DNA of 30,492 nt from a virus. The DNA lies in IMG/VR virus record IMGVR_UViG_3300012199_000042, positions 1-30,492 of that record, one strand, 5' to 3'. Below are positions 2,088 through 23,441 of the stretch, piece after piece. The notes beneath the pieces are model-generated. The model ran no database searches. It worked only from the letters and a program-made list of their open reading frames with translations, and was not told the origin of the DNA. The position numbers and the translations under genes are program-made. Numbering within the stretch: position 1 is the stretch's first letter; each line of letters opens with the position of its first letter.

Positions 2088-2468
2088 TTACTTTGTGAGC
2101 ATCTGTCCAACCACGCACGCTTCAAGTTGGAGTAGGTAGGATTGCCTGAGTGCAATCCGATCATTGAAATCTTCAGTATAGGTATCAATTCTTTGTAGAG
2201 CGGTCATCAATCGCTCTGCAAGGATATCCTCTCCTGGCTCTGCCTGATGATGCCAGAACCACTTCCACTTCGACCAATTCCCTGCCTGATGCTTGAGGAG
2301 CACTCCAATCTCAGACGGATACTTGCACTCAAGGCTGGCTTTGTAAAGGCCGTGCAAGTATTGCTCCAACCCTGCACGGTTCCCCCATGCTTTTATTATA
2401 AGTTGGGGAAGCAGGGAGAGCATCTCGCTCTCTCCCTGCTGGATTTGCGACCAGAGAATACTTCTCAT
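2088..2468 (-). CDS. Hypothetical protein, last gene of the leftward arm
   Basis: A 126-residue protein of unknown function, rich in Leu, Gln and Trp, with a KWKWFWHHQAE segment in the middle and a probably helical C-terminal half. I chose the ATG at 2468 because GGGGAG then sits 6 bases upstream and the start overlaps the previous stop (TAATG). An ATG at 2474 would abut the ribosome binding site. It is followed by two terminator hairpins. Confidence 0.65.
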   Translation of the reverse strand: MRSILWSQIQQGESEMLSLLPQLIIKAWGNRAGLEQYLHGLYKASLECKYPSEIGVLLKHQAGNWSKWKWFWHHQAEPGEDILAERLMTALQRIDTYTEDFNDRIALRQSYLLQLEACVVGQMLTK

Positions 2469-2707
2469 TACCATCTCCCCATAGGCACGCCATGCTCACA
2501 TCCATTGCCATGCCCACATTCGGGACAGAAGAGGTCATACTCAATCTCTGCGGCCATCGTGGCCCGCTCATCATTGAGATTATAGAGCCGCTGGCCTTGC
2601 TCCTGCTCGAACTTTGCTGAAAGCCTATCATACTCTTTGTGCTGCTCTTCAAACGGGCAAACCTGCCCAGGCTCGACATGGACACATGTCCGTTGTGCTG
2701 TTGCCAT
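2468..2707 (-). CDS. Small Cys/His-rich protein, possible zinc binder
   Basis: This 79-residue protein has a CxH near the N-terminus (TCVHVEPGQVCPF), a charged helical middle (EEQHKEYDRLSAKFEQEQGQ) and a C-terminal CPECGHGNGCEHG cluster able to bind zinc. The start has AAAGGAAAAG upstream. It is joined to the next gene by a TAATG overlap. An imperfect hairpin at 2727-2753 precedes its ribosome binding site. No function is recognised. Confidence 0.65.
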   Translation of the reverse strand: MATAQRTCVHVEPGQVCPFEEQHKEYDRLSAKFEQEQGQRLYNLNDERATMAAEIEYDLFCPECGHGNGCEHGVPMGRW

Positions 2708-2759
2708 GATCGTTCTTTTCCTTTCGCACCCTCCCCGCGTGCAGAGAGGGATGGGGGGA

Positions 2760-2984
2760 CTACTTATTTTCTACTGGAAGAACATCCGATGTACCCCAAC
2801 CAAAGTCGTGGGCGACTTCCCGCATCAACTGCTGATTTTCTACGGGAATATCATGATAGACAATGATACTGCCATCATGCCGTGTTGGACGGCAGTATGC
2901 GAGATTGGCAGCAGTACGACGCCGCATGAGTTCTTCAAAAAACCCGTTGTGTCCAGCTTGCGCTGGATAGACGCAAAACTCCAT
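2760..2984 (-). CDS. Hypothetical protein
   Basis: A 74-residue protein (MEFCVYPAQAGHNGF...) with no recognised domain. The frame extends upstream, but the ATG at 2984 is preferred because GGGAAGG lies 11 bases before it, whereas the in-frame ATG at 3041 has no such site. A perfect hairpin (3001-3017) lies just upstream. An ATG in another frame at 2993 is also close to the site, but its product looks less like a real protein. Confidence 0.5.
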   Translation of the reverse strand: MEFCVYPAQAGHNGFFEELMRRRTAANLAYCRPTRHDGSIIVYHDIPVENQQLMREVAHDFGWGTSDVLPVENK

Positions 2985-3000
2985 TTTGTCTTCATCCTTC

Positions 3001-3017
3001 CCTCCCGATACGGGAGG
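3001..3017 (-). other. Hairpin just upstream of a ribosome binding site
   Basis: CCTCCCG (3001-3007) and CGGGAGG (3011-3017) form a perfect 7-bp stem with a 3-base loop, 16 bases before the start at 2984 on the - strand. It is one of several such hairpins in front of phage genes in this window. It could block or expose the ribosome binding site, or mark an mRNA end. Confidence 0.5.
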
Positions 3018-3058
3018 CGAGACTGCCGTACTCGCGCGCATCGGCGCAAGCGGCTTAC

Positions 3059-3580
3059 TTATACAAATCCTGTCACCGGGGCGACAATAGCCGGAGGATC
3101 GTCGAAGAAGATGCGGGCGGGTATGAAGTCGCAATGCGCATTGAATGCGGCCTTCTCATCATCCTTCATATCACCGACATACAACGTCTTAGCAGGCTCA
3201 GCCCCGAAGTCACTCATGGCTTCAATAAGCATCCCTGGCGCTGGCTTGCGTCTATGATCTTCCATCCGGTACTGTGGAAGTTTTGCGTTGGGATGGGTAT
3301 AACAGACATACAACCCACTTGCTGGTATCCCGACTTCTCGGCACATCTTTTGCAGTTCAGCTAGGATGTCCTCTTGCTTCATGAAGCCATAGGCCACGCC
3401 ACCCTGATTGGTGATGACGACTACACGCTTCCCCTGTCCGATGAGGTCGCGTATCTTCTCAACACGACCGGGCAGCCACTTCCAATCGGCGGCATCCTTG
3501 CGGAAGGTAGCACCGGACTTGGTTGTAACCATGCTCCCATCGACATCCAGACCGATCAGTTTATACTTTTCAAGATTCAT
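3059..3580 (-). CDS. HAD-superfamily phosphatase (polynucleotide 3'-phosphatase/HisB-N type)
   Basis: The 173-residue protein shows the HAD motifs in order: GLDVDGS (residues 10-16, nucleophile Asp12 and acid/base Asp14), VVVITNQGG, RKPAPGM with the motif III Lys, and YVGDMKDDEKAA. TNQGG plus RKPxPGM is typical of the HAD-IIIA group, which includes polynucleotide kinase-phosphatase and heptose bisphosphate phosphatases. In a phage without sugar genes nearby, a DNA or RNA 3'-phosphatase used in end repair is the more likely role. The ATG at 3580 has GGAGGAAAG upstream and overlaps the previous gene by 11 bases. No kinase domain is attached. Confidence 0.8.
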   Translation of the reverse strand: MNLEKYKLIGLDVDGSMVTTKSGATFRKDAADWKWLPGRVEKIRDLIGQGKRVVVITNQGGVAYGFMKQEDILAELQKMCREVGIPASGLYVCYTHPNAKLPQYRMEDHRRKPAPGMLIEAMSDFGAEPAKTLYVGDMKDDEKAAFNAHCDFIPARIFFDDPPAIVAPVTGFV

Positions 3581-6610: not shown

Positions 6611-6829
6611 TCATGGCTGCCGGTAGCGGTCGGCCATCGGGCACACATCCAACGCCTCGTACTCATCGCGAGAGATACCGAGCACCTGGCATATAGCGAT
6701 GAGATTTCGTTCGGCGATGACTTCTTTTCTATTCGCCTTATACAAGGTCGGTGTACTAATCCCGGCGCGAGCTGCTACTTCTGTTGAAGTCAACCTCTTA
6801 CTTATCCATAGGTCACGTAACGTGGTCAT
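6611..6829 (-). CDS. XRE-family helix-turn-helix regulator
   Basis: The 72-residue protein is one Cro/C1-type domain: LRDLWISKRLTSTEVAARAGISTPTLYKANR, then a helix with N-L-I-A-I-C and LGISRDEYEAL. The turn TSTEVAARAGIS is the recognition unit. GGGAGG precedes the ATG. It is the first gene behind a compact promoter that overlaps a divergent one, so it probably represses itself and the + strand microgene at 6921. Confidence 0.85.
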   Translation of the reverse strand: MTTLRDLWISKRLTSTEVAARAGISTPTLYKANRKEVIAERNLIAICQVLGISRDEYEALDVCPMADRYRQP

Positions 6830-7061: not shown

Positions 7062-7253
7062 TCAATGTATCCCCCAGGTGAGAATAGCCGCGCTAGCAAG
7101 AGCTATAGCAAGCATTGCTATGCGCGTGTACCAATCCCAGGATAGGAAGGTTTGCCACCAGCGAGCAAATACCCCCTGCTTGATACCAAGGGCGATAGTG
7201 GACCCTAAAATGAGAATAGTTATCAAGAGCATGACGATTGCTTGTGTGTTCAT
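7062..7253 (-). CDS. Small two-helix membrane protein
   Basis: A 63-residue protein with hydrophobic helices at about 4-23 and 44-61 joined by a basic/aromatic loop (KQGVFARWWQTFLSWDWY). The ATG overlaps the stop of the upstream gene (ATGA), with GAGGT upstream. Its 3' end is convergent with the + strand microgene. It may be a second holin-like or membrane accessory protein. Confidence 0.6.
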   Translation of the reverse strand: MNTQAIVMLLITILILGSTIALGIKQGVFARWWQTFLSWDWYTRIAMLAIALASAAILTWGIH

Positions 7254-7516
7254 TGCTTACCTCGTTGCTCCATAAGATGTGTCAGACGTTCAATTGACCG
7301 CTCTACCATTCCCTTTTCTCTTCTATACTCTGCCTCATTCAGCACTTTGCTAATGGGAAGTACCGCTTCAAGGAGCGTCTCATCTGATGTGCTTGTCACT
7401 TCAAGAATGCGCCCAACTAGCTCACTCATTGTCACCTTGTGGTTTTCACAAATCAGTTCGAGGCATGCCCACGTTCGTGTTGAGCCTGGTACCCATAAGA
7501 ATTTTCTAAAGTTCAT
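7250..7516 (-). CDS. Hypothetical protein
   Basis: An 88-residue, mostly helical protein beginning MNFRKFLWVPGSTRTWACLE. The ATG at 7516 is chosen because the longer frame upstream is basic and out of character and lies over the neighbouring gene. It overlaps the upstream gene by 11 bases and the membrane protein by ATGA, so the three are translationally coupled. Function unknown. Confidence 0.6.
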   Translation of the reverse strand: MNFRKFLWVPGSTRTWACLELICENHKVTMSELVGRILEVTSTSDETLLEAVLPISKVLNEAEYRREKGMVERSIERLTHLMEQRGKQ

Positions 7517-11858: not shown

Positions 11859-12315
11859 AATAATCAACTCCTATAGCTTCCAGGGCTGCAAGGCAGATAC
11901 GTTCAGGTGTTAGGTGATCACCGTCTTTATCGCAGTAGAAGAGATCATAGAACATGTTAGAGCCGATGATCTTCTCTAATACATCAATAAAGCGTGAATA
12001 CTCTGCATAACCGGGGCGCGCGTGATCAGGATACGGATTGTTTATCCTGCGTACTACCTGCCATGCATCGCTCATACTTTCAAGTGGATTGAAGAGAAGT
12101 GCATCTTCATCTTCATGATAGAAGACACACACCCCCTCAAGTTGATTATTCCAGAATGCATAAGGATAGGTCATAGAGTCATTATGTTCTAATGCCCAAC
12201 GAGCGGTATGCATGATATCCCAGACGGAAAAATACGTCCAGCCCATCACATCTTGCACAATACATTCCGTCTTCTGGCGTTTCGTCATTATTTCCCACTT
12301 CGTCAGCTTATCCAT
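11851..12315 (-). CDS. BC1872-like phage protein (ABA-sandwich type)
   Basis: The 154-residue protein has VMGWTYFSVWDIM near the N-terminus, FNPLESMSDAWQVVRRINNP in the middle and ERICLAALEAIGV at the end. That order (VMGW, NPxxxxxDAWxVV, xICLAAL) fits a small phage family known for an ABA-sandwich fold and unknown function, often encoded near replication genes. The start may be 12315 or the ATG at 12288, which has GTGGGA just before it and is perhaps better. It sits between the initiator and the helicase and overlaps both by 8 bases. Confidence 0.65.
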   Translation of the reverse strand: MDKLTKWEIMTKRQKTECIVQDVMGWTYFSVWDIMHTARWALEHNDSMTYPYAFWNNQLEGVCVFYHEDEDALLFNPLESMSDAWQVVRRINNPYPDHARPGYAEYSRFIDVLEKIIGSNMFYDLFYCDKDGDHLTPERICLAALEAIGVDYYG

Positions 12316-13555
12316 ACGTCACCGTTACCCCCTTGGGTGGGTATATCTGCCTCACCGGCGTCCATCCCACGATTTTCGGCTCCTCAACCGGCACAATGAC
12401 CTGCCCCGGCCATTTCAAGCGATCTTTGAGGACTTCACGGGCGTTTTGCGACTCTTTGAGGAGTGCGCACCCTCCTAACTTGTGTTTATTGGCAGGAACT
12501 TTAAAGGGGAATATTTCAGCGAGCACGAAGGTATCTATCACCTCGAGTTCGGCATCACTGAACTTATCAACGAGGGAAGCAATAGCGTTTGACTCGCCAA
12601 TACATTCCCCTTTAGTCGGGAGCAATTCACCTCCTCGCCGCTGGTTGAAGTATGCCTGCCACTTGCGCCGCCTGGCCTGGATTTCAGGCGGGCATTCTTT
12701 GATCTTACGCCGGATTTTAAGTTCGTCCTGTTCATGCGTCTTAGTAGGTGGGGCTGGTTTCGTAGTCTGTATGTGTACAACTTGTGTAGGCGTTTCCTGT
12801 AACGGCGTGGTATCATTAGCGGCAGAAGGAGCAGGCTTTTCGCTGTCACCTGCCGACTTCACAGGCTCCTCTTCATGTCCAGGTGGTATGCAGGACGTGT
12901 ATAGAGGAGCTTGCCCGTTTTGGACTTCTTGTAGGGTATCATCAAACTGAGAGAGAGAAGAAAGAAAAGAAGCACCCCCGTCGCTTTCTGCGTGAGCAGA
13001 AACAACAAGAGATATATTACTATCTATACTATCTATATATATAGGGGGCTTCTCATCGTGCTTCTGGCCTTGCGTGACACCCCTTTTAGTGCTTACTGAT
13101 TGAGCACTGGTGCTTACTGAATAATCACCGGTGCTTAGTAGGTAAGCAGTGGCGTTTACTGAGTAAGCACCTTCCCCTGTTGACTCTGGCTTAGAGGTGC
13201 TTACTGAGTAAGCACCTTGTTCCTGGTGATTGAGTTGCCAGAGGAGGTCAGTCGGTTCCACAAGAAAGCCGATGCCCTTTTTGATCTTTTTGTCGTCATC
13301 GACTGGCTTATAGGTTTTAATCAGTTTCAGGCGTTCCAGTTTCGGTATCATCCCTTCATGTTGGGGGGAATGGCAAAGAGAACCAATGGAAATACCTGAC
13401 TCTTTGGCAATAGTGCGATAGGAGAATGCTTGCGGCCCTGGCTTCCAGCAGAGACGGATGATCGTCGCACAGAGCCAGCGTTCAAGTGGAAGAAGGTCGG
13501 GAAATGTCCATAAGGAATAGGGGAGTTGGGCGAATGGCCCCTGTGCTTGTGTCAT
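12308..13555 (-). CDS. Replication initiator/DnaD-like protein with N-terminal winged helix
   Basis: The 415-residue protein starts with a winged helix-turn-helix (residues about 20-85: LERWLCATIIRLCW..FSYRTIAKESGISIGSLCHS..MIPKLERLKLIKTYK). Next comes a repetitive Ser/Thr/Tyr stretch (113-157, AYSVST-type 7-mers), a long low-complexity linker, and a C-terminal domain (about 285-390) with RRRKWQAYFNQRRGGELLP and LKWPGQVIVP. Winged helix plus linker plus C-terminal domain, next to dnaB, fits a phage replication initiator of the lambda O/DnaD type. The repetitive stretch is encoded by iterons, so the gene probably contains the origin it recognises. Its start overlaps the methyltransferase stop by ATGA. 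Confidence 0.75.
   Translation of the reverse strand: MTQAQGPFAQLPYSLWTFPDLLPLERWLCATIIRLCWKPGPQAFSYRTIAKESGISIGSLCHSPQHEGMIPKLERLKLIKTYKPVDDDKKIKKGIGFLVEPTDLLWQLNHQEQGAYSVSTSKPESTGEGAYSVNATAYLLSTGDYSVSTSAQSVSTKRGVTQGQKHDEKPPIYIDSIDSNISLVVSAHAESDGGASFLSSLSQFDDTLQEVQNGQAPLYTSCIPPGHEEEPVKSAGDSEKPAPSAANDTTPLQETPTQVVHIQTTKPAPPTKTHEQDELKIRRKIKECPPEIQARRRKWQAYFNQRRGGELLPTKGECIGESNAIASLVDKFSDAELEVIDTFVLAEIFPFKVPANKHKLGGCALLKESQNAREVLKDRLKWPGQVIVPVEEPKIVGWTPVRQIYPPKGVTVTYG
13011..13215. other. Putative replication origin: five iterons plus AT-rich tract inside the initiator gene
   Basis: Five 19-bp imperfect palindromes of the type GTGCTTACTGAGTAAGCAC occur at 13089-13107, 13110-13128, 13131-13149, 13152-13170 and 13197-13215. 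The first four are spaced exactly 21 bp apart, two helical turns and seven codons. Directly beside them (about 13011-13052) lies an AT-rich tract of TATCTATA repeats with very few G or C, suited to strand opening. The same order, iterons then AT-rich DNA within an initiator gene, defines ori-lambda in gene O. The sequence pattern is clear; origin function is inference. Confidence 0.75.
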
Positions 13556-15011: not shown

Positions 15012-15155
15012 TTGCTTTTTCGCCCGTTTTCGGCTATACTTGCTATAGCTTCAAGAGCGAAACATCTTACCTCCATAAGTGGGGACTTATGGAAAATGGT
15101 ACTCATCTTTTAAAAAGTAGCAGCTATCTTAGCGGAGGGCTGCTATTCATTTTGT
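15012..15155 (+). ncRNA. Candidate small RNA opposite the leftward genes
   Basis: TTGCTT (15012-15017), 17 bases, TATACT (15035-15040) is a good + strand promoter in a region with no + strand gene. The transcript, starting near 15047, would contain a perfect 8-bp hairpin, CCATAAGT-GGGG-ACTTATGG (15073-15092), and end at the hairpin 15117-15146 followed by ATTCATTTT. A product of about 105 nt is possible. A short ORF from 15089 has only a weak GGGG site. The rest of the 14914-15146 gap holds no gene. Confidence 0.35.
15112..15146 (-). terminator. Rho-independent terminator of the XRE gene
   Basis: On the - strand, directly after the XRE stop codon, ATAGCAGC (15146-15139) pairs with GCTGCTAC (15124-15117), a stem of 7 bp plus one G-U, across a 14-base loop. 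TTTTT (15116-15112) follows. It separates the XRE gene from the leftward unit starting at 14913. Confidence 0.7.
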
Positions 15156-15371
15156 TCCCCAATCAATATCCTCAACCTCTACTTGTAACCCCCTCGCTTT
15201 CAGCGCATTGACGATCTTGCGCTTTGACTTCCAGGACAGTTGATGCCCTCCTGTCTCTGCTGCATTGATCGTACTGAGATGAAGTCCTGCTGCCTCGGCT
15301 AACTCCTGCTGGCTATTAAAGCCAGCATCAACACGATACATGAGCAATCTCTTTTGTGCCATATCAATCAT
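15147..15371 (-). CDS. XRE-family helix-turn-helix regulator
   Basis: The 74-residue protein carries LLMYRVDAGFNSQQELAEAA, GLHLSTINAAETGG and SWKSKRKIVNALKARG, a typical Cro/C1 domain with recognition helix LHLSTINAAE. AGGAGG lies 5 bases before the ATG. It has its own promoter and terminator, and an 18-bp palindrome lies between promoter and gene, so autoregulation is likely. It is adjacent to the divergent small RNA at 15515. Confidence 0.85.
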   Translation of the reverse strand: MIDMAQKRLLMYRVDAGFNSQQELAEAAGLHLSTINAAETGGHQLSWKSKRKIVNALKARGLQVEVEDIDWGTK

Positions 15372-15790: not shown

Positions 15791-15818
15791 CGCTGTGGTG
15801 AATGTGAGAAACTGCATA

Positions 15819-16592
15819 CTATGGATAGCGGGCCAGCTCGCGCATGGGCAAGAGGTAGGTGCTGGCCCACTTGCGCTCACCGTAGCGGATGATGCGCCCG
15901 CGTATCTCGCACTCAAGGATAGCGAGCTGTGCATCATAGCGATGTGTAACGAGTTGTTGGGCTAGGCCTATATCAGGGAAGGAGAAGTATCCTCCTTTGT
16001 GTCCAGGTTTAGCCGCTTGCTTCTTTTCCTGGCCCAGAATATACTCCTCATCGGGCTTGAAGAGGCTGAAGTACTGGCCATCGCGCACCTCGACCACTTT
16101 ATAGGTCGTGAAGGTGACTTTACTTGCAGGTTGCCTATCCCCTTTGAGCTTACCCGGCTCTTTCATCCATTCTGACTCAAGATTAAACCAGGCCATATGA
16201 ATACGCGCCTGGTTTTCCTCAGTCAACTGCTGCCAATTGACCCGGCGGAAGTACCCTTCCTCAATCTCCAGATAGAAGCGCCAAAACTGACCTTTAGAGA
16301 CGCGTCTATCAGACTTGCGACCGTAGGCCTCCGTGCCATGATAGGCCACCAGGACGGCTATAAGGTTCTGGCACTGGTAGATCACCTGGCTCTGGATATA
16401 GGGAATATCGAACTCGCCATACTTGCCCTGGTTGCGAAGTCGGATGATGAATATCCCCTCCTGGTTCATCGAAACCTCGGGTTCCACATCCGAGCGAGTC
16501 AGATAGCCATCAGTCACCGGGTCGGTGGACTGGACGATTTCGAGCGCGGTAACTACGAGGTCGCTCAGTGGTGGTCGGTCAATGGTGGTCAT
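15819..16592 (-). CDS. Hypothetical protein, 257 residues
   Basis: No family was recognised. The N-terminal half is mixed alpha/beta (LRNQGKYGEFDIPYIQSQ, HGTEAYGRKSDRRVSKGQFW). The middle is rich in Glu and Trp, and the C-terminal half has YKVVEVRDGQYFSLFKPDEEYILGQ and a basic KPGHKGGYFSFPDI segment. It has its own promoter with TTGACA at 16653-16658 and GGGAGG before the ATG. It lies just downstream of the sigma-factor gene and may be expressed with it or from its own promoter. Confidence 0.7.
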   Translation of the reverse strand: MTTIDRPPLSDLVVTALEIVQSTDPVTDGYLTRSDVEPEVSMNQEGIFIIRLRNQGKYGEFDIPYIQSQVIYQCQNLIAVLVAYHGTEAYGRKSDRRVSKGQFWRFYLEIEEGYFRRVNWQQLTEENQARIHMAWFNLESEWMKEPGKLKGDRQPASKVTFTTYKVVEVRDGQYFSLFKPDEEYILGQEKKQAAKPGHKGGYFSFPDIGLAQQLVTHRYDAQLAILECEIRGRIIRYGERKWASTYLLPMRELARYP

Positions 16593-16629
16593 GGTTCCTC
16601 CCTTTGCTTGAAAAACATCTTATACACGA

Positions 16630-16658
16630 TATTTACCATGAAATATGGAAAATGTCAA
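16630..16658 (-). promoter_or_regulatory. Leftward promoter of the 15819-16592 gene
   Basis: On the - strand, TTGACA (16653-16658), a 17-base spacer and TAAATA (16630-16635) stand 38 bases before the ATG. The -35 element lies against the 3' end of the sigma gene. A TATAAG at about 16619-16624 is a weaker alternative -10 site. Confidence 0.6.
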
Positions 16659-16659
16659 T

Positions 16660-17208
16660 CTATGCACTATGCAGCAGTTCTGCATGTGCTTGTAGCTTTT
16701 GTTTCGCGCGATACTTGCGCGTCTTCAATGCACCGAGCGTCACACCGAGGGACGCGCTCACCTCGTGCGGACGATAGCCTTGCATCGAGAGTCCTATGCT
16801 TTGCTGCTCTTCTGGTGTAAGGATAGCAGCGATTGACGCGTGAAGTTCTCTCGCTCTCTCCTCACGTAACACCTTGTCTTCTGCCAATTCCGCCGGGTCA
16901 AGTGGGTCGTGCATCAGCTCCGTCCCCTTTTCGCTCTCCGTTTCCAGGGAGAGATGCATCCGATGCCTTTGCTTGCGGAAATAATCAATAACTAAATTGC
17001 GTGCGATCATGAAGAGGTAGAGCTTGGACTTCTCCTGGCCATCTCCGAGGTTGCACCAGAGGCGCATAAAGAGAATTTGCAAGAGGTCCTCTGCCTCTTC
17101 TCTATCCCTCACGCGAATGAGGAGGAAAGTGAAGAGATCGGCGCGGTACGTGTCATAGAGCGCCAGGAAACGCTCCTCTCGTGGTGACGTGTCGTTTTGT
17201 GTGACCAT
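16660..17208 (-). CDS. ECF-type RNA polymerase sigma factor
   Basis: The 182-residue protein has region 2 (FLALYDTYRADLFTFLLIRV, DREEAEDLLQILFMRLW, LYLFMIARNLVIDYFRKQ) and region 4 (LTPEEQQSIGLSMQGYRPHE, VSASLGVTLGALKTRKYRAK) with an acidic linker between them and no region 3, as in ECF sigma factors. It would direct host RNA polymerase to phage or host promoters. GGGGGA precedes the ATG. Codons 1-9 are the predicted target of the small RNA at 15515-15603. No anti-sigma gene is visible nearby. Confidence 0.9.
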   Translation of the reverse strand: MVTQNDTSPREERFLALYDTYRADLFTFLLIRVRDREEAEDLLQILFMRLWCNLGDGQEKSKLYLFMIARNLVIDYFRKQRHRMHLSLETESEKGTELMHDPLDPAELAEDKVLREERARELHASIAAILTPEEQQSIGLSMQGYRPHEVSASLGVTLGALKTRKYRAKQKLQAHAELLHSA

Positions 17209-19571: not shown

Positions 19572-19775
19572 TTAGTTCTCCTTCTCACACCTGGCGCAAC
19601 TGCCAGACTCACCTTTGACTGTCCAGCCATGCCCCTTTGTACAACGAGTATGTGTTTTGAGGTAGCTGGCTTGTCGCTTGCTCACATGATGACCGGCAAT
19701 GATACCCTTGTTATAATGAGTAGATTGCTGACGCTCCATCGCTGCTGCTTGTCTGTCAAGTGCTGTATTTGTCAT
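19572..19775 (-). CDS. Small basic zinc-knuckle protein
   Basis: A 67-residue basic protein starting MTNTALDRQAAAMERQQSTH and ending RCTKGHGWTVKGESGSCARC, with Cys and His placed as in a zinc ribbon. AGAGGAGAAACG precedes ATG 19775. A perfect hairpin (19791-19807) lies just upstream. It could bind nucleic acid; no family was recognised. Confidence 0.6.
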   Translation of the reverse strand: MTNTALDRQAAAMERQQSTHYNKGIIAGHHVSKRQASYLKTHTRCTKGHGWTVKGESGSCARCEKEN

Positions 19776-19790
19776 CTTCGTTTCTCCTCT

Positions 19791-19807
19791 GCCGGATAGG
19801 CTCCGGC
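19791..19807 (-). other. Hairpin upstream of a ribosome binding site
   Basis: GCCGGA (19791-19796) and TCCGGC (19802-19807) form a perfect 6-bp stem with a 5-base loop, 15 bases before the ATG at 19775 and directly before AGAGGAG. The arrangement is the same as at 18494-18519 and 3001-3017. Confidence 0.45.
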
Positions 19808-19818
19808 GGGCCACTAGA

Positions 19819-20103
19819 TTACTTCTTTGCGGCAAGAGCTTGCTTCTGATACTGTTGGGCTTGCTGTGTGATCATTTGCAGATCAAGCTTTGAGGCATTG
19901 CTGCCATCAAAAGAATAATCTGGCAGATCCCACGAGAGCGTCAATTGTCCAGTTTCAAGATTGATGCCCATGACAGCAATTTCATACTTGGCGACTTTTC
20001 CATCAACTGTGCGGTAGACGTAAAAGGGATATCCCATGCTAATAGCTTTATTTACGGTTTGAAGATAGGCTATTTCCTTCTTCCAGGGGTTAAACTTTGT
20101 CAT
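19819..20103 (-). CDS. First gene of the leftward arm, hypothetical
   Basis: A 94-residue protein starting MTKFNPWKKEIAYLQTVNKA, with a beta middle (YPFYVYRTVDGKVAKYEIAVMG) and a Gln/Ala-rich helical end. GGAAGG lies before ATG 20103. It is the first gene behind the left copy of the 43-bp operator-promoter, so it should be among the earliest expressed leftward genes. Function unknown. Confidence 0.65.
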   Translation of the reverse strand: MTKFNPWKKEIAYLQTVNKAISMGYPFYVYRTVDGKVAKYEIAVMGINLETGQLTLSWDLPDYSFDGSNASKLDLQMITQQAQQYQKQALAAKK

Positions 20104-20147
20104 TTCTTTGCTTCCTTCCGGCTGTTTCATGTTTCATCTTACATAAG

Positions 20148-20190
20148 AATTATATCACATATGTGATGAAAATACTACCCCAAAAGGCAC
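20148..20190 (-). promoter_or_regulatory. Left outward operator-promoter (copy 1 of a 43-bp inverted repeat)
   Basis: Read leftward, this block is identical over 43 bp to 21472-21514. It has TGATATAAT, an extended -10 element, whose TG lies inside the perfect palindrome ATCACATATGTGAT (20154-20167). There is no good -35, so it relies on the extended -10 or on an activator. A bound dimer would cover the promoter. It drives the 20103 gene and probably the genes below it. Confidence 0.75.
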
Positions 20191-20215
20191 TAATTTCAAC
20201 ATAATTCCGTGATTT

Positions 20216-20539
20216 CTAGGAAATTGCTTTTTCTACCTTTTTTCTTTCTTCTCTCCATTGAGGATGGGGGCGTAAGGGTATATTCCGGATTCTTTCTTCA
20301 CGGTAGAGCCTCCCGCCTGGCAGGATGATAGAATCCCCTTCTTTTCTCAGGTCGGCGCGGTGTACTACTGAGAAGCGGGTATAGTTCTGATATGTTCTAT
20401 CCTTGTTGTATTCATTAACTACCCGCTCATTCCATATCTCAGCAACTCGATGGGGAGTGATCCACTTGACCCCGTGCTCATCAATAAATTCGGTTAAGCG
20501 CATCGGTATCTCATTTCCAATTTCTCTAAGGGACATCAT
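20216..20539 (-). CDS. Putative helix-turn-helix regulator of the control region
   Basis: The 107-residue protein contains FIDEHGVKWITPHRVAEIWN, a possible helix-turn-helix, then YQNYTRFSVVHRADLRKEGD and GGRLYREERIRNIPLRP. This resembles the small excisionase/MerR-like DNA-binding fold. The two starting ATGs (20539 and 20536) follow GGAGG. It lies between the two copies of the operator repeat, next to a divergent promoter region containing similar operators, so it is the best candidate for the protein that binds TCACATATGTGA. The family call is tentative. Confidence 0.6.
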   Translation of the reverse strand: MMSLREIGNEIPMRLTEFIDEHGVKWITPHRVAEIWNERVVNEYNKDRTYQNYTRFSVVHRADLRKEGDSIILPGGRLYREERIRNIPLRPHPQWREERKKVEKAIS

Positions 20540-20548
20540 CGAACCTCC

Positions 20549-20625
20549 ATTCTATCACATGTGTGTACTATTGTAACTTTCATCACATTTGTGCTATAAT
20601 ATGATTGTACTCATGTGTGATGAAA
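20549..20625. promoter_or_regulatory. Divergent promoters with three TCACA-type operators
   Basis: Rightward: TTGTAA (20571-20576), 18 bases, TATAAT (20595-20600) with an extended TGC, overlapped by ATCACATTTGTGC (20582-20594). Leftward: either TAGAAT (20549-20554), using the same TTGTAA as -35 (TTACAA) at 16 bases, or TACAAT (20570-20575), which leaves room for the ribosome site. Further operators are TCACATGTGTGT (20555-20566) and CATGTGTGATG (20613-20623). Only 107 bases separate the two starts, so the promoters must interfere with each other. Confidence 0.65.
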
Positions 20626-20646
20626 AAGTCAAGTAAGGGAACAGTG

Positions 20647-21456
20647 ATGAAAAAGCAAGAAGCACAACAGAGAGCAGAGAAATTTCGTAATCTTCGTCTC
20701 AATGGCGCTACCTTTGAAGATATAGCTAGTACCTATAGCATCTCACGCCAGCGGGTTGAACAGATCATTTCACAGTATGAGCGTACCTATAACTTACCTC
20801 GTTCTACTGCTACCAAAAGAGAAGTGGTGAAGTTCGCACGGCAAGCAGATAAGGAGGAATATAAAGAGGCTCTCCATATCTCTCAGCAAAAAAACCTGAA
20901 ACGCTTTGTTCCCTCCTTTCAACTTGATGCACACCTTGTGGGCCAATTTCTGAATGAATTGGGGAAGAAATCAGTTCTTTATGGGTACTTTGGGAAGTCT
21001 CAGCGGAATCCGAAAACACGGAAAGATGGCATTCCTTACCCTTGTATGGATACACCGACAAATATCTTTTTCTCAGGAAATAGACGAACAGGGAAAGATC
21101 ATGTGACTGTGCATTCCTGGGTGCTTCAACACTATGGGATACAACTAGAGCCGGGGCAAGATTGCCACCATATCGATGGTGATATCACCAATAATATGCG
21201 CGAAAACCTGGAGGTTCTTTCAAGTAAAGATCATGGGTATCTTACTATGCAAGAGCAGATACATAAAGGAAACATACATCGCCGCCCACGTAGTCGCGCC
21301 TTAACAGATCAGCAAGTCATACAGATACGCGCTCAGTATCAATTAGGGCAGACTTCTTTTCCTCAACTTGCAAAAATCTATAGCGTTTCACCTCTGTCTA
21401 TCTATAAAGCCGTGCATGGGCTCGAAGCCTATAAGGATATTACAAAACTGCTATAA
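20647..21456 (+). CDS. HNH endonuclease with N- and C-terminal helix-turn-helix regions
   Basis: The 269-residue protein has an N-terminal helix-turn-helix (residues 22-43, TFEDIASTYSISRQRVEQII) and a central HNH domain (His156, QDCHHIDGDITNNMRENLEV at 171-190, His196). A second helix-turn-helix follows at 237-257 (SFPQLAKIYSVSPLSIYKAV). This is the design of free-standing phage homing endonucleases, which cut DNA at specific sites to spread their gene. ATG 20647 has AAGGGA 6 bases upstream; the frame opens earlier at a TTG (20605) and an ATG (20620) without such a site. It lies within the control region and is transcribed from an operator-covered promoter. Confidence 0.85.
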   Translation: MKKQEAQQRAEKFRNLRLNGATFEDIASTYSISRQRVEQIISQYERTYNLPRSTATKREVVKFARQADKEEYKEALHISQQKNLKRFVPSFQLDAHLVGQFLNELGKKSVLYGYFGKSQRNPKTRKDGIPYPCMDTPTNIFFSGNRRTGKDHVTVHSWVLQHYGIQLEPGQDCHHIDGDITNNMRENLEVLSSKDHGYLTMQEQIHKGNIHRRPRSRALTDQQVIQIRAQYQLGQTSFPQLAKIYSVSPLSIYKAVHGLEAYKDITKLL

Positions 21457-21471
21457 AATTGCCCCATTTTG

Positions 21472-21514
21472 GTGCCTTTTGGGGTAGTATTTTCATCACA
21501 TATGTGATATAATT
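21472..21514 (+). promoter_or_regulatory. Right outward operator-promoter (copy 2 of the 43-bp inverted repeat)
   Basis: Identical over 43 bp to the complement of 20148-20190. The palindrome ATCACATATGTGAT (21495-21508) overlaps an extended -10 element TGATATAAT (21506-21512 region). It drives the rightward arm from 21573 onward. The identity stops at the edges of the promoter, so it has been kept or copied for this role. Confidence 0.75.
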
Positions 21515-21572
21515 ATATCAATGAGAGGACACCGTAAACCCTCTCACGAGCGCGATCAGAAAGGTCACAGAG

Positions 21573-21848
21573 ATGCAGAAAGTCACCACACTCAAGCGGG
21601 TCCAAGTTATTCAGACGTGGGTATTTAACAAGATTGATCGGGTATGCTTCAAGGTTCAATCTTCAAACAATGTAGATAAGTATAACACTTGCTTCGATCG
21701 TGGGCATGGCTCCTGCACTTGCCCGGCATACGGTGAATGCTACCACCTCAAGCAGCTTCGCCCGCGCTATGAAGCGATCAAGGCGAAGAGAGAAGCAGAG
21801 AAGCGAGCGGCCTTTGTTGCAGAGTATGACCCCTGCATGGTGGCCTAG
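21573..21848 (+). CDS. SWIM-like zinc-finger protein
   Basis: The 91-residue protein has a strand-rich N-terminus (RVCFKVQSSNNVDKYNTC), then CFDRGHGSCTCPAYGECYHLKQL with C-x-C...C-x-H spacing typical of SWIM zinc fingers, and a basic helical tail. SWIM domains bind DNA or proteins. It is the first gene of the rightward arm, with AAAGG before the ATG. Confidence 0.65.
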   Translation: MQKVTTLKRVQVIQTWVFNKIDRVCFKVQSSNNVDKYNTCFDRGHGSCTCPAYGECYHLKQLRPRYEAIKAKREAEKRAAFVAEYDPCMVA

Positions 21849-22790: not shown

Positions 22791-23441
22791 ATGACTCAAC
22801 AACAAACTTACAATGCTCACGAACATCTCATCCAGATCAAAGGCCGCGATGGACAGCAGAAGGAATACTACCCCGCAGCCTGGCGTCTCTATGAACTCAG
22901 ATACCGCCATCCTCACATCACGATTGAGTCCAAGATTGAGTATATGGACCAGGAGCACAATTTCGTTATCATTAAAGCCGTCATCTATGATGGCAAGACG
23001 TACGAAGAGTCAGACATGCGGGCCTCCTCGATGAAGCAAGGACTTCTCTCAGCACTTGATAAGGTTGAGACAGCAGCCAAAGCGAGAGCTGCTCGTGACT
23101 TCGGCGTTTCGACTGAGCTTGCTTTGGATAGCGAGCCAGAAGAAGACCTTGATCCTGCACTGACACAAAACGCGCCTGCTAATACCAAAGTGACACAGAA
23201 GGGGAACCTCTCAGTTGTTCCACAGAACGAGTCTGCCCCTTCCCCGCTCTTGGGTGCCCTGCAAGAAATGTACATCTACGCCCGCGACCTGGGGCTCATT
23301 ACCGACCTGGCAAGTTGGGAAGCCCTCAAGGTCGAGATACTGGGGAAAGCTGTCCATGATGAGGATATGAGTGCCCCAGATGTAGAGAAGATGCGCAAGG
23401 GGTTGGCCGAGCGCAAGAAGAAAGTCGCCAACAAAAAGTAA
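22791..23441 (+). CDS. Putative ssDNA-annealing/ssDNA-binding recombination protein
   Basis: The 216-residue protein opens with HEHLIQIKGRDGQQKEYYPA and AWRLYELRYRHPHITIESKI, continues with FVIIKAVIYDGKTYEESDMR, and then LSALDKVETAAKARAARDFG. Order and spacing (K-G-x-x-Y-x-P..R..W, beta strands, then E-T-A-x-x-R-A) fit phage proteins placed near Rad52/Sak-type recombinases that bind single-stranded DNA. A long Pro/Gln/Ser-rich linker (about 115-150) joins a second helical domain with a Lys-rich end. Annealing or binding of ssDNA is the likely role, but the family assignment is from memory. Confidence 0.6.
   Translation: MTQQQTYNAHEHLIQIKGRDGQQKEYYPAAWRLYELRYRHPHITIESKIEYMDQEHNFVIIKAVIYDGKTYEESDMRASSMKQGLLSALDKVETAAKARAARDFGVSTELALDSEPEEDLDPALTQNAPANTKVTQKGNLSVVPQNESAPSPLLGALQEMYIYARDLGLITDLASWEALKVEILGKAVHDEDMSAPDVEKMRKGLAERKKKVANKK

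Follow-up and report, generated by a model that had tools for sequence, protein, structure and literature searches.

A putative lambda-style early-control module with matching outward operator-promoters in a tailed soil phage

In phage lambda, the outward-firing promoters pL and pR and the operators that they share flank the repressor gene (oL/pL - cI - oR/pR). We analysed an IMG/VR virus record of 30,492 bases (the window, here meaning the whole stretch of DNA), which contains a module of 1.4 kb with this layout: two outward promoters with common operators flank the gene of a putative regulator, p107. Like lambdoid immunity regions, the module has replication genes in the controlled arms and a regulator that is predicted to be autoregulated, and, as in heteroimmune lambdoid swaps, operators and regulator diverge together between conserved flanks. 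A sequence-only reading of this DNA had set the module apart from lambda by its mirror symmetry; this was overstated, since outward pL and pR around a repressor gene are lambda's own layout, and the symmetry is therefore not the novelty. What is unusual is that the two outward promoters (PL and PR) are identical over 43 bp, that each carries one palindrome rather than three, that they are of the extended -10 type, that no CI-type protein lies between them, and that an HNH endonuclease gene sits inside under the same operator; the rightward arm also differs from that of lambdoid regions in leading into terminase and portal genes. The module looks like a swapped version of a lambda-type switch, not a new type of machine. 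The explanation that we prefer, at a probability of roughly 0.55, is that the module serves a tailed soil phage as its central transcription switch, in the style of lambda-type immunity and early-control regions, with p107 as the operator binder, a swapped cassette and the HNH gene as a passenger.

Two further systems bear on this locus. In phage T4, the endonuclease I-TevI acts as an autorepressor at its own promoter (PMC2988022). T4 homing endonucleases resemble the present case in that a phage endonuclease gene has an operator over its promoter, and in that endonuclease genes are inserted beside the promoters of essential neighbours; I-TevI differs in being an intron-encoded GIY-YIG enzyme that binds its own operator, whereas here the operator is common to the main promoters of the phage and the HNH protein is only a candidate binder (PMC2988022). 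The repressors of Cluster A mycobacteriophages likewise act on early promoters and have immune specificities that diverge among relatives; their stoperators are many asymmetric sites spread over the genome, whereas the good sites here lie within the 1.4-kb module (PMC9283540, PMC6550527).

Matching outward promoters at the ends of the module

The two arms, at 20148-20190 and 21472-21514, had been described as a perfect 43-bp inverted repeat, and are indeed exact reverse complements. The match extends to 46 bp at 98%, and the runner-up among perfect inverted repeats in the 30.5-kb window measures 16 bp. Also as claimed, the palindrome ATCACATATGTGAT overlaps the extended -10 element TGATATAAT in both arms, with the left arm oriented leftward and the right arm rightward, so that both point outward. 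The operator of PL (minus strand) occupies 20154-20167 and that of PR (plus strand) 21495-21508, and each promoter aligns with its counterpart in a distant relative, L020 (IMGVR_UViG_3300006028_000004, 54.6 kb), the sole informative relative. The identity between PL and PR spans about -48 to about -6 and so covers the core promoter but stops short of the transcribed region. A perfect palindrome, TGATATAATTATATCA, lies at 21505-21520.

In the rest of the window, exact copies of ATCACATATGTGAT are absent. Allowing up to two mismatches gives three sites in the window against 0.10 expected, the extra one being at 20582, and all good operator sites fall inside the module. Of the five occurrences of TGNTATAAT in the window, three are the operator/-10 units of PL, PR and an inner promoter of the HNH gene, PHNH. 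When aligned on their -10 elements, four units show one layout in one register (PR, ...TCACATATGTGATATAAT; PL, identical; PHNH, ...TCACATTTGTGCTATAAT; P107a, an inner promoter of the p107 gene, ...ACACATGTGATAGAAT), bearing out the claim that operators lie next to or over the -10 element at each promoter. The TG of the extended -10 comes from the TGTGA half of the operator.

Downstream of PL, the leader (20103-20147, minus strand) contains GTAAGATGAAACA, which is conserved, and, by the predicted start, the small palindrome TCTTACATAAGA (20137-20148). The PR leader (21515-21572, plus strand), which reads ATATCAATGAGAGG..., is also conserved with L020 and includes a predicted hairpin, TGAGAGG/CCTCTCA, which is not significant by itself. 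The genes change strand at the module, being mostly leftward to the left of about 20.1 kb and rightward to the right of about 20.6 kb. The leftward arm contains genes for a DnaB helicase, an O-like replication protein, a sigma factor and a DUF932 protein, and the rightward arm runs through terminase and portal. First in the rightward arm is a gene for a Cys/His-rich protein (21573-21848, plus strand), SWIM-like by eye, whose L020 counterpart (7250-7474) shows 26% identity.

The binder of the palindrome might instead be a host factor or one of two left-arm XRE-like HTH proteins (15147-15371 and 6611-6829). Both XRE-like proteins are recognisable small HTH proteins, unlike p107; no further good operator lies near their genes, however, and phage repressor genes usually adjoin their operators. 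As for a host factor, the spacing TCACA-N2-TGTGA differs from that of CRP/FNR sites, which rules out a CRP-type site. Overall, we regard a binder of this kind as rather unlikely. In IMG/VR, the remaining matches to the operator-promoter 19-mer were AT-rich phage contigs that carry one double-ended ATTATATCACATATGTGATATAAT in another neighbourhood, and were judged coincidental.

The p107 and HNH genes and the promoters between them

The two genes of the module are transcribed divergently from a region that is 107 bp long (20540-20646), as claimed, if the HNH gene starts at the ATG at 20647. The sequence-only reading had placed three more operators here. Two of them, at 20554 and 20582, are good, each departing from TCACANNTGTGA at one position. 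The third, at about 20609-20622, is a half-site only; part of it copies the GTGATGAAAAAG duplication found where the HNH gene starts. The site at 20554 belongs to P107a (20549-20567, minus strand), with operator ATCACATGTGTGTA and extended -10 TGATAGAAT, from which the p107 mRNA would be near-leaderless. PHNH (20578-20600, plus strand) combines operator ATCACATTTGTGCT with extended -10 TGCTATAAT and shares 91% identity with the PR unit across 23 bp. A further promoter-like sequence, P107b (20604-20632, minus strand; TTGACT-17-TACAAT), has the half operator in its spacer, and its transcript would take in the GGAGG of p107.

The p107 gene (20216-20539, minus strand) encodes a basic protein of 107 aa (pI 9.6). 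Searches of Pfam, PHROG, NCBIfam and PDB gave no family match and detected no HTH, so that p107 is not recognisable as the CI/Cro-type HTH repressor that a lambda-type region has between its promoters, and a single-sequence AlphaFold model was unusable (pLDDT 40). Close relatives of p107 and of the HNH protein in IMG/VR were confined to one near-identical contig, L003, and neither p107 nor p257, another protein of this phage, was found in 47 genomes of one Chloroflexota class. L020 encodes a small leftward protein of 111 aa (p111) in the same slot and on the same strand, with 19% identity to p107 in a global alignment, perhaps without homology. Its position, together with the small gene that both phages have in that slot, favours p107 as the binder of the palindrome, and it is our best guess for that role.

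The presence of an HNH endonuclease gene (20647-21456, plus strand) was confirmed by matches of its 269-aa product to PF13392 (HNH_3; E=7e-6, above cut-off) and phrog_7545 (E=7e-12). HTH-like stretches flank the HNH_3 domain at the N- and C-terminus. The gene is absent from the homologous control region of L020, a polymorphism of the site seen in this single relative, and among 400 Chloroflexota genomes we obtained one weak domain match. In another relative, L014 (2001-4400), the terminase is split by an intein-like insertion with an HNH-like ORF on the opposite strand (2314-3168).

With HTH-like stretches at both ends and an operator at its own promoter, the HNH protein might itself bind the palindrome as a repressor or autorepressor, the arms being its binding sites, much as I-TevI represses itself through an operator similar to its homing site (PMC2988022). 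Against this, the dual-promoter switch is kept in L020 without an HNH gene, and two perfect sites around its own gene would endanger the phage's own genome unless cleavage were uncoupled. We therefore consider an HNH repressor decidedly improbable. Since L020 has the control region without the gene, HNH is not a core part of it, and under the preferred p107-centred switch the gene would be an optional, homing-type passenger under the common operator. A later arrival would have set PHNH facing P107, with PR kept, or rebuilt from PL, downstream. A bolder variant, which we hold only as a minority view, is that HNH has been wired into the repressor circuit or has itself been turned into one; the identical palindrome of PL and PR would then couple the endonuclease to both arms, and p107 would represent a new DNA-binding family.

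A cassette exchanged between conserved leaders

L003 has the same arrangement, with no difference from the window between 20250 and 26453, which argues against an assembly error, but does not amount to independent conservation. Most of the 10.6 kb compared between the two is identical, with strong differences in the blocks 19767-20078 and 15797-16700, which we attribute to local recombination; one of these blocks stops some 70 bp short of the left arm.

L020 is more distant and has the same gene order and strands (terminase 59%, p216 69%, p257 54%, sigma factor 29%), an order that the terminase relatives L021-L033 do not have in common with the window. Its promoters lie at homologous places (6735-6790, leftward; about 7160-7250, rightward), and in both of them the -10 position and the leader align with the window counterparts. 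The PL leader (TATGTAAGATGAAACATG.. in one, TAGGTAAGATGAAACAAG.. in the other) aligns with a score of 37 against a shuffle maximum of 33, and the PR -10 and leader (TGATATAATTATATCAATGAGAGG vs TGTTATACTTCTATCAA-GAGAGG) with 28 against 25; in neither case did any of 2000 shuffles reach the observed score. A cross-control that aligned PL against PR gave no match, and the conserved 13-mer of the PL leader, GTAAGATGAAACA, occurred in no relative other than L020. The L020 promoters are of the classical -35/-10 type (TTGACT-17-TATCCT and TTGACA-17-TATACT), with a common AAAAnACTTGAC upstream and TTACGCA in both spacers in opposite orientation. Just downstream of the PL -10, L020 has a palindrome, CTTACCTAGTAAG (6743-6755), at the place of TCTTACATAAGA in the window, with different letters; these palindromes are possible second operators.

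Everything between the two -10 elements differs between the window and L020, including the operator-like repeats, the small leftward gene and the presence of HNH. Because -10 and leader positions align with L020, the two arms very probably represent genuine, conserved PL and PR promoters, which bound an exchanged regulatory cassette. The cassette is AT-rich (GC 45% in p107 and 43% in HNH, vs 50% outside), and the simplest reading of the alignments is that a regulator and its cognate operators were exchanged while the leaders on either side were conserved, as in heteroimmune lambdoid phages; the exchange is seen here in one pair of phages.

An HNH gene that is missing in L020 but lies here between perfect inverted ends, and the lower GC of p107 and HNH, would also suit a mobile element, of which the arms would be the terminal inverted repeats and the outward promoters an incidental feature. 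No target-site duplication was found at the outer flanks, though, and no transposase ORF; the inner promoters carry the same operator/extended -10 unit, and the matching promoter positions and conserved leaders of L020 mark both ends as promoter sites of long standing. An insertion sequence or transposon was thus rejected, and a mobile p107-HNH element is very improbable. Slimmer still is the chance that the arms flank an invertible segment, in which recombination across the 43-bp repeats would flip p107 and HNH. Such an inversion is possible in principle, but it leaves PL and PR unchanged and so would switch nothing outside; the orientation is the same in the window and L003, and no site-specific recombinase was found. 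This explanation, too, was set aside.

The proposed switch and its phage

In the preferred p107-centred switch, PL would drive the leftward arm and PR the rightward arm, and a dimeric protein on TCACATATGTGA would block RNA polymerase at the extended -10 elements of both, shutting the two arms. PL and PR, being copies of each other, would respond alike, so that replication genes on one side and terminase and portal genes on the other could be silenced together. The best candidate for the dimer is p107, whose own promoters carry weaker copies of the operator; this suggests that p107 is autoregulated and tuned below PL and PR, and the weaker central operators would permit low-level synthesis of the regulator. 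HNH, under the same operator, would be silent whenever the phage is silent. The cassette between the two -10 elements would be exchanged as a unit among related phages, with the flanking leaders conserved. We infer binding, repression, the identity of the binder and the physiological role from sequence. Searches of the window, L003 and the L020 contig (54.6 kb), all possibly incomplete, gave neither a tyrosine nor a serine integrase (PF00589, PF00239); 'immunity' may therefore not mean lysogeny.

Other features of the window concern replication, late transcription and the host. Five 21-nt palindromes of the GTGCTTACTGAGTAAGCACC type lie at 13089-13217, four of them in tandem at 21-nt spacing, within a gene (12308-13555, minus strand) that adjoins DnaB and looks like a lambda-O-like initiator gene bearing its own origin. 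The sigma-70-like factor of the left arm (16660-17208; PF04542, E=2e-12) may recognise late promoters. Within the virus contig there is also a CRISPR array (1174-1873), in which a 37-nt repeat, GTTGCATTGACTTCGACCCGTTTGAGGGTACTGAAAG, occurs ten times with nine spacers of 36-37 nt; the spacers gave no convincing match to the fetched loci. Long arrays in a genome of the Chloroflexota class mentioned above (G103) match a 28-nt part of the repeat with two mismatches. The N-terminal domain of p216 (22791-23441) is present in 27 of the 47 genomes of this class, with 14 matches in a single 4.3-Mb genome (G183), and represents a host-lineage family common to the phage and the class; tried as an anchor for prophages there, it led to host genes. 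Together, the p216 domain and the CRISPR repeat point to this class, with genomes of up to 13.7 Mb, as the host, and the class is probably Ktedonobacteria.

The module would offer an early-control switch in soil phages of an unstudied group, which probably infect Chloroflexota, and an instance of a lambda-style swap of regulator and operators in which no CI protein is recognisable. Should p107 bind the palindrome, it would found a new family of phage repressors; should the HNH protein do so, a homing endonuclease would have been captured as a phage regulator.
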